44,117 nt of DNA, taken from positions 1 through 44,117 of the forward strand of contig CACDDC010000007.1 of the NCBI GenBank assembly GCA_902551455.1, written 5' to 3'. A model generated the notes under the pieces. It searched no databases. It saw only the letters and a list, made by a program, of their open reading frames with translations, and was not told the origin of the DNA. Position numbers and translations under genes: made by a program. Position 1 is the first letter of the stretch; the number at the start of each line of letters is the position of its first letter. The stretch comes from an uncultured Pelagibacteraceae bacterium. GTDB taxonomy: Bacteria > Pseudomonadota > Alphaproteobacteria > Pelagibacterales > Pelagibacteraceae. Shown piece by piece: positions 2,323 through 6,304 of this stretch.

Positions 2323-4866
2323 TTATTCCAAAAAAGGTTTCGGATTATATAGCATTTCCTCATACTCTCCCCTCTCACCATTTTCAAGTGGGAAAGGCAC
2401 CTTATCTTCTTCAAGTTTTTTCTCAAAATTAGATGTAATGTTTTTAATTCTATCAATATATTTTTCATTGATTCGAATATAACCTTCATCGTGATTATAA
2501 ATTAGAGAAGGTATGTATTTAAAAACCTGATAAAATCTGTCGTCAAGTTTTGGTTTGTTGTTGGTTAAATCATCCAAATATCTTATTATATATGGAGATT
2601 CAGTTTCGTTCCTTAATAACAAAATATGATCAACTATATCTTTATATTCATTATAGTTTCTAGAGATAAAAACAAAAAACTTATATTCCAAATATGATAT
2701 CTCAAATTTTTTGGTTTTTTCACCAATTGTTAAAAGAACTTTATACAAAGTTATTATTAAAAAGTTTTTAAAATTTTTATTAAACGACTCAGACTCTGGA
2801 TTTCTAATGTCTGTATCTTTGGCTATTCTATTCCAATAGCAAATTTTTTCAAATTGAGACTCAATTAAATCTACATATTTATTTATCTCATCAAAGTTAT
2901 TGGTTCTTTTACAAATTTCATCAAAAACTTTTGTTGGGGCGTTCTTTTTATCTTTATCTAATAATCCTAAATATCTAGACAAAATCATCGTTCTAGTGCC
3001 AGATGTATCATCTGAAATATTTTCTAATTTCTTTTCAAAATCTTTCACATTTATCTCAGGATTATCTTTATAAATTTTACACCCTTTAAGATTGGTTATT
3101 ATATCTTTTTTTTGCTGACCTATTTTTGAATACATATTTGATTTTGCCTGTCTTACCAAATATTCTCCCCATTTTTTCCAATTCTGTGGAATCCTTTCGA
3201 CATCAATTTTTGGAGAATAAAGAGCCTCTTCTTGTCTAAAGATATCAATAACCTCTCTTTCAAAGATTATTTCATTTCCATTATTATCATAGTAAAAAAG
3301 ATCTTTTTCAGGTAACTCGACTGTGCCTGTGACACCTTCAAATACACCAAGTGCATTACGTTGATTTTGACCAACAAAATCCATAACTCTTAATTTAAAT
3401 TTATTATCAGAAAGTCTTAACCCTCTACCAAATTGTTGGATCGCAATTGTTGATGAATTTGTTGGTCTTAGTAATAATAAACAGTCAATTTTTTCAATAT
3501 CAATTCCCTCATTAAATATGTCAACAACACAAGCAATATTAATTTTACCGTCAATAAAATCTTGAGTATTTTTTTTTCTTTGCTCTCTACTAAGAAAAAA
3601 TTCACTAGTTGTATTTGTATTGCTATGTATTACAGCTGCATTAAGGTTTTGATTATTTAAAGCTGCTGCAAATCTATGTGAATGTTCTATATTGACACAA
3701 AATGCGAGAGTTTTTTTTGGTAAAGGATCTTTTAATAATCTAAATTTTTCGATAATCAAATTATCTCTTTCTTCGATAACTAAAAGTTGATTAAGATCCT
3801 CCTCATAATACTTTCTATTGTTCCATCTAATATTGCTATAATCAACATTATCTTTATGTCTAAACCATTGATATGGAACCAAATAACCTTTTGCGATGGC
3901 CTCCTCTGTTCTTACCTCATGAACCAAATTTCCATCATAAATTTCATTTATTATATCAAAATCATCTGCTCTCTCAGGTGTAGCAGTCAAACCTAATAGA
4001 AATTTAGGTTTAAAATGATTTAATACACTTGAATAAGTAATATTTTCATCTGAAGAATGATGCGTCTCATCAATAATAATATAATCAAAATGACTTTTAT
4101 CGAACTTCTCTAAATTTTCTGGTCTATATAAAGTTTGAATTGATGCAAAAATGATATCTGATTTAGTATCTTTTTCCTCAGCATTAAAAAACCCAGATGT
4201 TTTTTCAGGCCATACATTTTTAAAAGACGTTTGTGATTTTTTTAAAATTTCATCTCTATGTACAACAAAAAGTGTTTTTCCATTAAAATTCTTAGCATCA
4301 AAAGCTGATAAATAAGTTTTACCAAGTCCAGTAGCATAACATACAAGGCCTTTCTTTTTTCCTTTTTTTCTAATTTCTTTTAATCTTTCTAATGTTATTT
4401 TTTGAACTTCATTTGGCTGCGGTTTTCCTGAGATAAAAGTTTTAGAGTTTACGTTAAACTCTGGCTCAGCCACAAAAAAACGTAATAATGTATCCCTACC
4501 TCTAATCTTATTTTCTATAATATCGAAAAGTGGGATGGTTCTATAATTACCTTTAAAATACTCGTTGATAGAATTTTTTTTAAGCTGATCATGCGAATAA
4601 TCTTCAGCAGAAATTTGATGATGTGTGGGATCATCTACTTCTATAGCGTACTTTCCATTGTCTCCATGTAAAACAAAGTCAATTCGTCTTTTATTTCCCT
4701 CTGCATCTGTAAAATTAAACTCATTCTCTAATCGATCTAAACCTCTTTCTCCCCATGTTGGATAAAATAGCTCTGTAATAAATGAGTAGTTACCAAATGT
4801 TTTAACTTTTTTAGACTCTGGTCTTCTGCAGTGAGGATATTTTATAAAGTAGTCTTCTAATTTCAT
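2323..4866 (-). CDS. Restriction-type superfamily II helicase with N-terminal nuclease-like domain
   Basis: An 847-residue protein with an N-terminal nuclease-like domain (about 1-120), a superfamily II helicase core (about 150-500) and an unassigned helical C-terminus. Helicase motifs are complete: Walker A ATGLGKT (178-184), DETH (266-269), TATPER (294-299), motif V around 445-457 and QQFGRGLR (477-484). The N-terminal pattern RIDFVL (61-66) then IEVDDPTHH (75-83) resembles Vsr/DUF559-like PD-(D/E)xK folds, with ExD in place of ExK. It is first in the operon with two DNA methyltransferases, so it is most likely the restriction subunit that translocates on and cuts unmodified DNA. The helicase assignment is firm; the nuclease role is inferred. 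Confidence 0.85.
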   Translation of the reverse strand: MKLEDYFIKYPHCRRPESKKVKTFGNYSFITELFYPTWGERGLDRLENEFNFTDAEGNKRRIDFVLHGDNGKYAIEVDDPTHHQISAEDYSHDQLKKNSINEYFKGNYRTIPLFDIIENKIRGRDTLLRFFVAEPEFNVNSKTFISGKPQPNEVQKITLERLKEIRKKGKKKGLVCYATGLGKTYLSAFDAKNFNGKTLFVVHRDEILKKSQTSFKNVWPEKTSGFFNAEEKDTKSDIIFASIQTLYRPENLEKFDKSHFDYIIIDETHHSSDENITYSSVLNHFKPKFLLGLTATPERADDFDIINEIYDGNLVHEVRTEEAIAKGYLVPYQWFRHKDNVDYSNIRWNNRKYYEEDLNQLLVIEERDNLIIEKFRLLKDPLPKKTLAFCVNIEHSHRFAAALNNQNLNAAVIHSNTNTTSEFFLSREQRKKNTQDFIDGKINIACVVDIFNEGIDIEKIDCLLLLRPTNSSTIAIQQFGRGLRLSDNKFKLRVMDFVGQNQRNALGVFEGVTGTVELPEKDLFYYDNNGNEIIFEREVIDIFRQEEALYSPKIDVERIPQNWKKWGEYLVRQAKSNMYSKIGQQKKDIITNLKGCKIYKDNPEINVKDFEKKLENISDDTSGTRTMILSRYLGLLDKDKKNAPTKVFDEICKRTNNFDEINKYVDLIESQFEKICYWNRIAKDTDIRNPESESFNKNFKNFLIITLYKVLLTIGEKTKKFEISYLEYKFFVFISRNYNEYKDIVDHILLLRNETESPYIIRYLDDLTNNKPKLDDRFYQVFKYIPSLIYNHDEGYIRINEKYIDRIKNITSNFEKKLEEDKVPFPLENGERGEYEEMLYNPKPFLE

Positions 4867-4894
4867 TTTTTGTATAATGTACTTTTAGATTACT

Positions 4895-4900
4895 ATTATA
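4895..4900 (-). promoter_or_regulatory. Predicted -10 box for the restriction-modification operon
   Basis: On the minus strand this hexamer reads TATAAT, 28 bases before the helicase ATG at 4866, giving a predicted leader of about 22 bases. No good -35 hexamer is seen at normal spacing. That region is occupied by the inverted repeat at 4921-4940, so transcription may depend on a bound factor. There is no clear Shine-Dalgarno before the ATG. Confidence 0.45.
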
Positions 4901-4909
4901 TTATCTCTC

Positions 4910-4931
4910 CATGCTCTAGTCTTGCTCTAGT
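4910..4931. repeat. Tandem 11-bp direct repeat (cluster A)
   Basis: Two adjacent 11-mers, CATGCTCTAGT and CTTGCTCTAGT, differ at one position. The 11-bp period places both on the same DNA face. They lie just upstream of the predicted -10 box of the restriction-modification operon. They share the core TGCTCTAG, close to TACACTAG of the cluster at 5159-5180. Confidence 0.75.
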
Positions 4932-4940
4932 TTGAGCAAG
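4921..4940. promoter_or_regulatory. Inverted repeat, candidate operator
   Basis: CTTGCTC and GAGCAAG form a perfect 7-bp inverted repeat with a 6-base centre. Its centre is about 42 bases upstream of the predicted start point of the helicase-methyltransferase operon, over the -35 position. It overlaps the second unit of the direct repeat. A dimeric regulator of the restriction operon is a reasonable guess; no control-protein gene is seen nearby. Confidence 0.5.
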
Positions 4941-5010
4941 TTAATTAAGCTTTATTTTCTAATCTTAATTGAAAACTAAATAAAAGTTATGTGTATTTAT
5001 AAAATTTTTG

Positions 5011-5040
5011 GACTACCTTAGACTACTATGGACTGACTTT
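5011..5040. repeat. Three degenerate 10-bp direct repeats (cluster B)
   Basis: GACTACCTTA, GACTACTATG and GACTGACTTT lie end to end with a 10-bp period. The first two share GACTAC. Offset by one base, ACTACCTTAG matches ACTACACTAG of the cluster at 5159 at 8 of 10 positions. The cluster sits 10 bases from the end of the tRNA-Leu fragment, where arm-type recombinase sites could lie. Confidence 0.55.
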
Positions 5041-5047
5041 AACTTCT

Positions 5048-5096
5048 ATCCCTCGTCTTTTAAGTCCTTTGTGTCTACCAATTTCACCACGAGGGC
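5048..5096 (-). pseudogene. tRNA-Leu(UAA) 5' half / internally deleted tRNA remnant
   Basis: Reading leftward from 5096, the sequence matches a bacterial tRNA-Leu from the acceptor strand GCCCTCG through the D-arm (TGAAATTGGTAGACAC) to the anticodon loop CTTAAAA (anticodon TAA). The match ends at 5058, exactly at the 3' edge of the anticodon loop. The 3' anticodon stem, variable arm and T-arm are missing. Two bases further on, CGAGGG could pair with the 5' acceptor strand, so this may be an internally deleted tRNA rather than a clean half. It cannot be a working leucine tRNA. The anticodon loop is a common crossover site for tRNA-targeting integrases. Confidence 0.75.
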
Positions 5097-5158
5097 ATTA
5101 TTTGAGTTGTGTTTACTTACTTTTTTTAACATAAAAAATCAATTTTTTTATTTATCAC

Positions 5159-5180
5159 AACTACACTAGAACTACACTAG
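5159..5180. repeat. Perfect tandem 11-bp direct repeat (cluster C)
   Basis: AACTACACTAG occurs twice back to back with no mismatch. It lies about 50-70 bases upstream of the predicted start point of the DUF2130 gene and about 60 bases from the tRNA-Leu remnant. The 11-bp period matches the cluster at 4910-4931 on the other side of the gap. Confidence 0.85.
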
Positions 5181-5214
5181 TTAAATTTATTAAAGAATTA
5201 ATATTTATTAAATA

Positions 5215-5223
5215 TGTTATATT
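5215..5223 (+). promoter_or_regulatory. Predicted extended -10 promoter for the DUF2130 gene
   Basis: TGTTATATT fits an extended -10 element (TG, one base, then TATATT) and ends 14 bases before the ATG at 5238, giving a leader of about 8 bases. No -35 match is obvious, which is usual for extended -10 promoters. Confidence 0.4.
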
Positions 5224-5237
5224 AAAGTAAATTTATA

Positions 5238-6304
5238 ATGAGCAATATACTAAAGATAAAATGTCCAGATTGTGGGAATATATTTGATGCTGGAAGTGCA
5301 TTTAATGACCATGTAGAAAAAACTAGGAAAGAAGAAAAAAAAAAGCAGAGCGCACTGCTCAATTAAATGCTGAAAAAAAATTCAAATCAGACAATGAAAA
5401 ACTTGAGAAAGAAAATTTAAAATTAAAAAAAGATAAAGAAAAAGATGAGGAAAAAATTAGAAAAGAAGAACGAGAAAAAGCATCAAAAGATGCAGAGGAA
5501 AAATTCAGTAAAATAAATGAAAAAACGACTAAAGAAAATCAAATTAACAATAAGAGATTATTAGATAGACTTGCAAAATCTGAACAAAATAATAGAGAAC
5601 TAAAAAAAATAATTAAACAAAAATCACCAGAAGTTCAAGGCGAAGTTCAAGAAGAATTAATAGAGGATTTTCTTCGAAGAAAATTTCCATCTGACTCAGT
5701 TACACCTATTAAGAAAGGTGAGAAAGGTGGTGACTGTATAATGACACTTCATAACAAAAAGAATGATGAAATCGGTCAAATATATTTCGAGAGTAAAGAT
5801 AGAGAAAAAGTATTTCAAGAAAAATGGGTTGATAAGTTATTAAAAGATATGCAAGAAAGAAATATTAGTTACGGAATTTTAGTTTCAGTTTCAAAACCAA
5901 AAGATTTAAAGAAAGATGATGGTTATGTTACAAGACATAATTGCATCATAATAATAGAGATGAATTATAGACTTATACATTCTGTTGTAAGTTTTGTTAA
6001 AGATAGTCTCGAAACACAGTCACAAAACTCAAAAGATTTTGATGGTACAGCAGAAATGAAAAGACTCTGGGAATTAATCAGAAGTGATCAATTCAAACAG
6101 GGTTTGAGGGTTTTGTACCTTAAAATGTTAAAAATTGAAAAAAATATAGAAAAACAAAAAAAATTCTTTGAAAAAAATATTGCAGATCAAGAATTAAGTC
6201 TTTTGGAGATGAACCAGGAACTTAAAAATGTTGTTCTGTCATTTAGATCAAAAGTTGGTACAATTTTACCAGATAATTTACTTGATAAACCTGAAGATAA
6301 ATAA
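5238..6304 (+). CDS. DUF2130 family nuclease-like protein, interrupted by a -1 frameshift
   Basis: Read as annotated, the ATG at 5238 gives a 42-residue peptide ending at 5366. Shifting -1 at the A10 run restores a ~355-residue DUF2130 protein ending at 6304. It has an N-terminal CPDCG motif, a long charged coiled coil (about 25-140), then a PD-(D/E)xK-like domain beginning EVQGEVQEE with Asp166 of GGD and E185-S-K187 as likely metal-binding residues. The downstream frame has no stop for 319 codons and keeps these residues, which argues against an old pseudogene. The alternatives are programmed slippage, a recent mutation, or a homopolymer error in the sequence. DUF2130 proteins have no settled function. 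It is transcribed divergently from the restriction operon. Confidence 0.8.
5335..5345 (+). other. A10-G slippery run at the DUF2130 frameshift
   Basis: Ten adenines followed by G place the heptamer A AAA AAG (5339-5345) in the zero frame, the same -1 slippery motif used by E. coli dnaX. A -1 shift there leads directly into the frame of the main DUF2130 domain. A weak hairpin can form just after it (GAGC 5348-5351 with GCTC 5357-5360), and the zero frame stops at 5364. Confidence 0.55.

Follow-up and report, generated by a model that had tools for sequence, protein, structure and literature searches.

Introduction

The closest described system is that of the K1 mycobacteriophages (CrimD, Anaya, and Adephagia), in which, according to the published account, the attP core lies between two pairs of 11-bp arm-type sites, and the arm consensus, which is not the same in closely related phages, varies in concert with N-terminal residues of the integrase, with one phage looking transitional (PMC3203893). 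This concerted change of arm site and integrase N-terminus is the nearest precedent that was found for the SAR11 locus described here. As far as the same account extends, the K1 pairs are mutually inverted, with one position that differs, and every K1 element carries its own integrase and no cassettes, whereas the SAR11 pairs are direct repeats, fall into 32 octamers, and lie on elements most of which have no integrase (PMC3203893). The novelty here lies in a large population of integrase-less cassettes that would employ such sites as addresses.

The P4-like integrases of the HPI/HAI7 type (3jtz, 3ju0, and 3rmp) resemble this locus in the predicted N-terminal fold of the helper integrase and in insertion at a tRNA gene, whereas the SAR11 core is the 5′ part of the tRNA and its site lies mostly on integrase-less elements. 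In the accessible text on CIMEs and on the accretion of ICEs and IMEs, att sites without integration genes are likewise stacked at one target, and CIMEs are described as decayed ICEs that moved in cis with a neighbour (PMC5704250). The SAR11 elements also keep their att ends while integration genes are absent, but, compared with CIMEs as portrayed there, they are small, far outnumber the integrase-bearing ones, and bear addresses that are both matched and diversified. The additive flexible genomic islands and the tycheposons of marine plankton are similar in that cassettes are added at a tRNA with repeated tRNA fragments; an arm-site code is not described in the portions of those reports at hand (PMC10872708, PMC7771536). 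The SAR11 cassettes are bounded by repeated tRNA-gene fragments, as in additive flexible genomic islands, but they depart from tycheposons, which the available text gives as 4–200 kb elements with a tyrosine recombinase (PMC10872708), since 134 of 141 are under 8 kb and the integrase is mostly absent. Pelagiphage HTVC105P and its relatives hold an identical 42-nt tRNA-Leu core beside the integrase gene, but their integrase, of 297 aa, belongs to another group, and neither the AGTC triplet nor matched 11-bp pairs were seen in the flanks. This phage was rejected as a helper of the SAR11 elements, as the core is common to both but matched pairs were not seen in the phage. No description of the SAR11 array, or of a matched arm code on integrase-less elements, was recognised in the non-subscription literature, mostly at the level of abstracts (including PMC7318151, PMC7542561, and PMC2217521).

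SAR11 bacteria, the most abundant in the ocean, have streamlined genomes, and their gain of variable genes, restriction systems included, is poorly understood. If true, an array of addressed cassettes linked to a tRNA would provide a concrete route for this gain. Paired octamers together with a cognate integrase domain would constitute natural, readable specificities for a β-sheet DNA reader (25 seven-letter codes on 85 elements), predicting which helper moves which cassette and aiding the construction of orthogonal integration systems. The movement of integrase-less islands would thereby become a directly testable question.

Repeat Clusters and tRNA Core of the Window

The window, i.e., the whole stretch of DNA that was analysed, comprises the first 44,117 bases of a contig from the SAR11 (Pelagibacter) group, whose named relatives are Pelagibacteraceae. 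A preliminary description reported three clusters of short repeats in one orientation, and re-reading of the sequence located them at exactly the positions given there: 4910–4931 (CATGCTCTAGT/CTTGCTCTAGT), 5011–5040 (GACT starting at 5011, 5021, and 5031), and 5159–5180 (two perfect copies of AACTACACTAG). When read on the tRNA strand, the octamer of the first 11-bp pair is CTAGAGCA and that of the last is CTAGTGTA. The three clusters had been regarded as a single repeat family with one core, which had to be abandoned: the 10-bp AGTC triplet is distinct from the 11-bp pairs, and the pairs carry two codes. The half tRNA reported between them proved to be real. Its 39 nt (5058–5096, minus strand) are identical to the 5′ part, through the anticodon loop, of tRNA-Leu(taa) in relatives, whose complete genes were called as such by ARAGORN, and they make up the attachment core; the same segment, there 42 nt in length, is present in two Pelagivirus records. 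ARAGORN and Rfam called no tRNA in the window, and a complete tRNA-Leu(UAA) gene is absent from the assembly of this genome. The element bearing the complete gene would lie beyond the contig start.

All of the repeats are assigned to the minus strand. AGTC ×3 at exactly 10 bp (5011–5040), which is conserved in relatives, corresponds to the inner (P′-like) left-end arm of the lower-coordinate element, and two copies of CTAGAGCA placed 11 bp apart (4910–4931) form its left-end address pair, found in relatives at the same position and with the same pattern. The core and this left end together constitute a block (4893–5100, minus strand) homologous to relatives, for which blastn gave matches of 77–89% identity over query positions 25–234 or part of them (L002–L009). 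Two copies of CTAGTGTA, also 11 bp apart (5159–5180), form the right-end address pair of the higher-coordinate neighbour element (type D), as judged from five loci (L092, L119, L129, L141, and L151) that have CTAGTGTA at both element ends and a similar right-end tail. The two pairs of the window differ in octamer because they come from two adjoining mobile elements.

Probable cargo was located on the minus strand, consisting of a restriction-like ResIII/Helicase_C protein (2323–4866), whose best PADLOC match was to the helicase part of type IV methyl-directed REase models, an N6_N4 DNA methylase (737–2320), and a C5 cytosine methylase cut by the contig end (3–749). The right end of the lower-coordinate element lies outside the assembly. 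On the plus strand, a DUF2130-like gene with a broken frame (5238–6304) is possible cargo of the neighbouring element, whose left end was not found. This frame breaks near its 5′ end in an A-rich run, reflecting either decay or an assembly error.

Cassette Arrays at tRNA-Leu(UAA) in Relatives

Among 399 genomes of the genus, 279 contained a 30-nt core pattern, and none contained the reversed control pattern. From these relatives, 120 array loci were taken, one per genome; since they were picked mostly for two or more cores, array-locus frequencies are not population frequencies. With the window included, 121 loci were parsed, and 115 of them contain a complete tRNA-Leu(taa). Integration at this one tRNA is serial: zero, one, two, and three half cores lie upstream of the complete tRNA in 9, 79, 25, and 2 of the 115 loci, respectively. 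Each insertion leaves a 5′-half core on the far side and rebuilds the tRNA on the near side. The 141 bounded elements range from 267 to 15,495 bp with a median of 2,522 bp, and two of them (267 and 275 bp) are the attP module alone, with no cargo.

The ends of the elements share a regular anatomy. Exact AGTC ×3 at 10 bp follows 87 of 147 half cores, or 123 when up to one mismatch per copy is accepted, as compared with 11 and 33, respectively, of 5000 random 110-nt segments; 86 of the 87 exact triplets lie exactly 23 nt after the core. Read along the tRNA, the left octamer pair (11 bp apart, with a GAGATAA tail) is situated about 75 bp beyond the triplet, while the right pair is situated about 100 bp before each internal core in the same orientation, and a fixed tail, GAGATAAAATAA, follows the address pair at both ends. 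The attP module of about 270–330 bp accordingly reads right pair, ~100 bp, 39-nt core, AGTC triplet, ~75 bp, and left pair. Of the 141 right ends, 107 passed a strict pair criterion, as did 102 of the 147 left ends, compared with 143 of 5000 random 270-nt segments; downstream of the complete tRNA, none of the 115 stretches did so. The caller placed right pairs at 121 of the 141 cores that are internal or complete versus 25 of 121 leftmost cores, the flank of which is mostly chromosome. The arrangement is that of an att site of a lambda- or P4-type tyrosine integrase, having as its core a segment of the target gene (39 nt of tRNA-Leu(UAA)) with repeated arm-type sites on both sides. The suggestion that helically spaced arm-type sites flank an attachment core at the tRNA half was borne out, as the clusters recur around each tRNA-half copy in relatives and integrase-bearing relatives show the same layout.

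Each insertion also swaps the sequence upstream of tRNA-Leu(UAA) for a conserved right-end stretch, TTGTTCAATTATAAATATTAGCATAAACAC (e.g., L043 8600–8705), which may have to serve as the promoter of this tRNA.

A cargo scan covered 96 of the 138 cargo representatives of at least 90 aa, the larger elements and the shortest ones being left out. Within this scope the cargo was mixed, with restriction-modification systems of types I, II, and IIG, MADS-like proteins, HAD hydrolases, and MORN repeats, besides a TctA transporter and a superoxide dismutase. In L047, L052, L040, and L048, the first gene opens with the same short signal-peptide leader (MKKLLGIVVLG-like) despite different cargo; remnants of this leader adjoin right ends, and it may be a second recombination module. 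Related 11–15 kb elements in L115, L158, and L181 bear the code CTTGCACC/CTTGCACA at one or both ends, and no integrase was detected in these three.

Matched Addresses at the Two Ends of an Element

The octamer is mostly of the form CTNGNNNN, and among 85 non-redundant elements it exists as 25 different 7-mers and 32 octamers. Of the 141 elements, 107 were called at both ends (34 were not), and 103 of those are in register (4 are not). An exact octamer is common to both ends in 93 of the 103 in-register elements, where shuffling gave a mean of 5.75 and a maximum of 16 (2000 runs). When elements with similar cargo were removed by cargo-only clustering, 77 of the 85 non-redundant elements still shared the octamer between their ends (shuffle mean 4.9, maximum 14, 10,000 runs), and the eight mismatches comprise seven that differ by one base and one that differs by two. 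L176 is frankly mismatched, with CTAGAAAC on the left and CTAGTAGC on the right. The caller favours C at position 0, G at position 3, and the tail, and it demands that the copies within one end be alike; these regularities are hence partly by construction; the left–right match is not built into it. The shared-repeat caller missed the left ends of type D (L092, L119, L129, L141, and L151), in which CTAGTGTA was seen separately.

The match is confined to the ends of one and the same element: the right end of one element and the left end of the next across the shared core match in 0 of 20 cases. Mutual information between the ends amounts to 0.7–1.6 bits at most of the variable code columns, but in the GAGATAA tail and the two spacer columns (8 and 9) it stays close to what shuffling gives. 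Plain duplication of the ends was ruled out, because the information sits in the code columns and not in the spacer or tail. No code is repeated within an array (0 of 19 arrays, 1.14 expected, P = 0.31); this orthogonality is not significant. Loss of the repeats in relatives with the flank retained had been named as an outcome that would speak against them, and the comparison went the opposite way: the att-end repeats are kept as a pattern, with their letters changing in concert.

Integrase-Bearing Relatives and Their Codes

Integrases are rare in the arrays. The Pfam integrase model matched nothing inside the arrays of 21 genomes, 14 of which have a match at other places. A family profile found three integrases in the 120 array loci, two of them (L097 and L177) inside the 141 bounded elements. 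Nearly all elements do not encode an integrase of their own. The same profile gave hits in 2 of 297 genomes of the order, and a search with one integrase as the query gave hits in 6 of 399 genomes of the genus and none in G000. No homologue of the helper integrases was matched in 50,697 phage records. A 7.8-kb contig from IMG/VR, L059, has the core at both ends and is evidently circular; it encodes a 545-aa integrase, a primase-helicase, and a RusA-like protein, and its relatives are also present in IMG/VR.

The integrase genes of L059, L080, L074, L078, L197, L198 (L097), and L199 (L177) each contain, in their first 110 nt, one or more exact copies of the right-end octamer. There are usually two exact copies, spaced 25 bp apart and preceded by a degenerate one; the left pairs are imperfect in the integrase genes of L059, L074, L078, and L197, with an extra copy located 25 bp on. 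A second group (L075, L077, and L196) has exact pairs on both sides of the att region. L195 shows only one end, a different motif is present once on the left in L200, L190 has a partial pair, and no pair was found in L192. Four of the six codes of integrase elements also occur on integrase-less elements, namely CTAGAAAC on 9, CCAGCACA on 8, CCAGTACC on 5, and CTAGGATC on 1 of the 85; CTAGGGTC and CTAGTAAT are absent from all 85.

At least two further integrase groups, the pelagiphage 297-aa type and a distant one, adjoin the same tRNA-Leu core (L060, L063, L065, L071, and L076; L082 and L083), which makes one tRNA-Leu a hub for unrelated elements. Upstream of the HTVC105P core, the attP flank of L082 has a single CTCGTACA, an octamer that also occurs as a cassette code, possibly by chance.

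Integrase N-Terminal Domain and Address

A structural model of the integrase (pLDDT 79, pTM 0.43) was compared with 3jtz, the arm-binding domain of the HPI integrase, and residues 29–124 were superimposed with a Z-score of 9.5 and an rmsd of 2.0 over 77 of 77 residues. When the L077 domain was modelled alone (pLDDT 83, pTM 0.75), the top three Foldseek matches were 3jtz, 3rmp, and 3ju0 with E-values of 4.0 × 10⁻³ to 5.7 × 10⁻³; no arm-binding domain was matched below E = 0.001. The Pfam arm-domain model had no sequence match in the five integrases scanned. The fold models thereby point to an integrase with a predicted arm-binding domain in related elements.

The N-domain diverges with the address. 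Between close integrases whose codes differ, the N-domain and catalytic domain are diverged by 23% and 6% (L059/L074), 42% and 6% (L199/L197), and 47% and 2% (L075/L077), respectively, whereas in L059/L080, the one close pair with the same code, the figures are 3% and 7%. The N-domains of L078 and L198 are similar (23% diverged) and their middle parts different (51%), the pattern expected of a domain swap. For 10 integrases, whose codes were put in register by hand, the Mantel correlation between N-domain distance and code distance was 0.76 (0 of 5000 permutations), and the partial correlation given the catalytic domain was 0.45 (p = 0.0038). Other proteins diverge between these elements as well. 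A 130-aa and a 178-aa protein show 36% and 47% identity between L059 and L074, and 34% and 63% between L059 and the same-code L080, where they diverge equally or almost equally far; a 331-aa protein shows 60% identity between L075 and L077, in which some ORFs have no match.

Apparent Exchange of Codes and Transfer Between Genomes

The same cargo is found with different codes at both ends in L044 (CTTGTACT) and L053 (CTAGAACT), and again in L105 (CCAGCACA) and L144 (CTTGGACA). The elements of L055 and L169, 2,654 bp in size, are 98% identical, and 45 of their 49 differences fall in the two ends, where all four octamer copies change from CTAGAAAC to CTAGTAGC. In a circle, the two ends of an element lie side by side. 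L139 has a hybrid right end. Together with the mismatched L176, these patterns suggest that codes are moved through the swapping of attP modules or of ends. A hypergeometric test on L055 versus L169 (8 of 49 differences in the code, P = 5.6 × 10⁻⁸) is not taken as evidence of selection, because the clustering of differences in the ends points to whole-end exchange.

Elements that are 96–99% identical lie in genomes whose tRNA flanks are only 70–81% identical in L055/L139/L169, L153/L155, L041/L162, and L144/L145; for example, L055 and L139 are 99.0% identical in the element versus 77.7% in the flanks, and L153 and L155 are 97.1% versus 70.3%. As judged from these identities, elements have been transferred between divergent genomes. 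In other cases, the elements do not exceed their flanks in similarity (L049/L172, 92.0% versus 96.3%; L104/L111, 81.9% versus 81.9%; also L117/L156).

Proposed Mechanism and Alternatives

We consider it probable that the gap in the window is a hybrid attachment site of two serially integrated elements, the addresses being read by an integrase and the cassettes being moved in trans. The address octamer would be an arm-type site that a tyrosine integrase recognises through its three-stranded-sheet arm-binding domain, and one integrase could bridge both arms only if both carry the same address, a constraint that would make the ends covary. Most elements would have lost, or never had, an integrase, and a rare integrase-bearing helper that reads the same address would carry out the excision and insertion of such cassettes in trans. 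From sequence comparison, we infer the binding of the address, the identity of its binding protein, mobilisation in trans, and a route between cells. A broader proposal, plausible but somewhat less likely than not, is that the addresses act as locks and keys, with hundreds of tiny integrase-less SAR11 cassettes each matching one of many integrase specificities. Helpers and cassettes would then diversify their addresses by swapping the arm-binding domain and attP module as units, perhaps as an arms race, with helpers evading free-riders and cassettes catching up.

The cassettes might instead be decayed integrated elements, i.e., CIME-like relics that inherited matched ends from a parent and were spread by homologous recombination or by movement in cis. 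Accretion of an array at one tRNA and loss of the integrase are typical of such relics in the text available (PMC5704250), and the exchange of whole ends between L055 and L169 (45 of 49 differences) would suit homologous recombination. We regard this origin as unlikely but worth serious consideration, given that the integrase-less elements far outnumber the integrase-bearing ones and keep both arms with matched codes over at least 25 seven-letter codes, that cargo-free attP modules exist among them, and that some nearly identical elements (96–99%) reside in genomes with flanks of 70–81% identity.

Another possible reader of the variable pair is a different helper protein, an excisionase or directionality factor, in which case the AGTC triplet would be the integrase arm site. 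With its 10-bp spacing, the triplet is similar to the lambda arm consensus, excisionases bind direct repeats, and the helper L059 encodes a 97-aa small protein that is a possible excisionase. However, this 97-aa protein is 93–95% identical whether the elements compared differ in code or not, whereas the integrase N-domain tracks the code, and L075 and L077 have matched pairs without the AGTC triplet. Such an assignment is hence quite improbable, and reading of the pair by the integrase itself is preferred.

The preliminary description had also allowed a shared operator of the divergent genes; the 11-bp pairs would then serve as regulator sites upstream of a −10-like GATAAAAT. Some activators typically use 11-bp direct repeats located upstream of a −10, and the fixed tail after the pair at both ends would fit such sites. 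This operator or promoter was rejected as very improbable, mainly because the left pair sits inside the integrase reading frame in integrase-bearing relatives; moreover, a pair is also present at the far end of the element, and the match joins the ends of one element rather than the sides of a shared gap (0/20). In a consensus promoter scan limited to one right end (L043 8450–8800), no promoter-like site appeared on the tRNA strand and one appeared on the other strand, fewer than the shuffle mean of 1.8.

Chance repeats in A+T-rich DNA can practically be dismissed, as judged by a dinucleotide-preserving shuffle test of the kind first suggested: in 3000 shuffles of 4867–5237, a single tandem 10/11-mer cluster with at most one mismatch arose 48 times and a perfect one 4 times, but the two clusters observed and GACT ×3 at 10 bp arose in none, and the layout is conserved in relatives.
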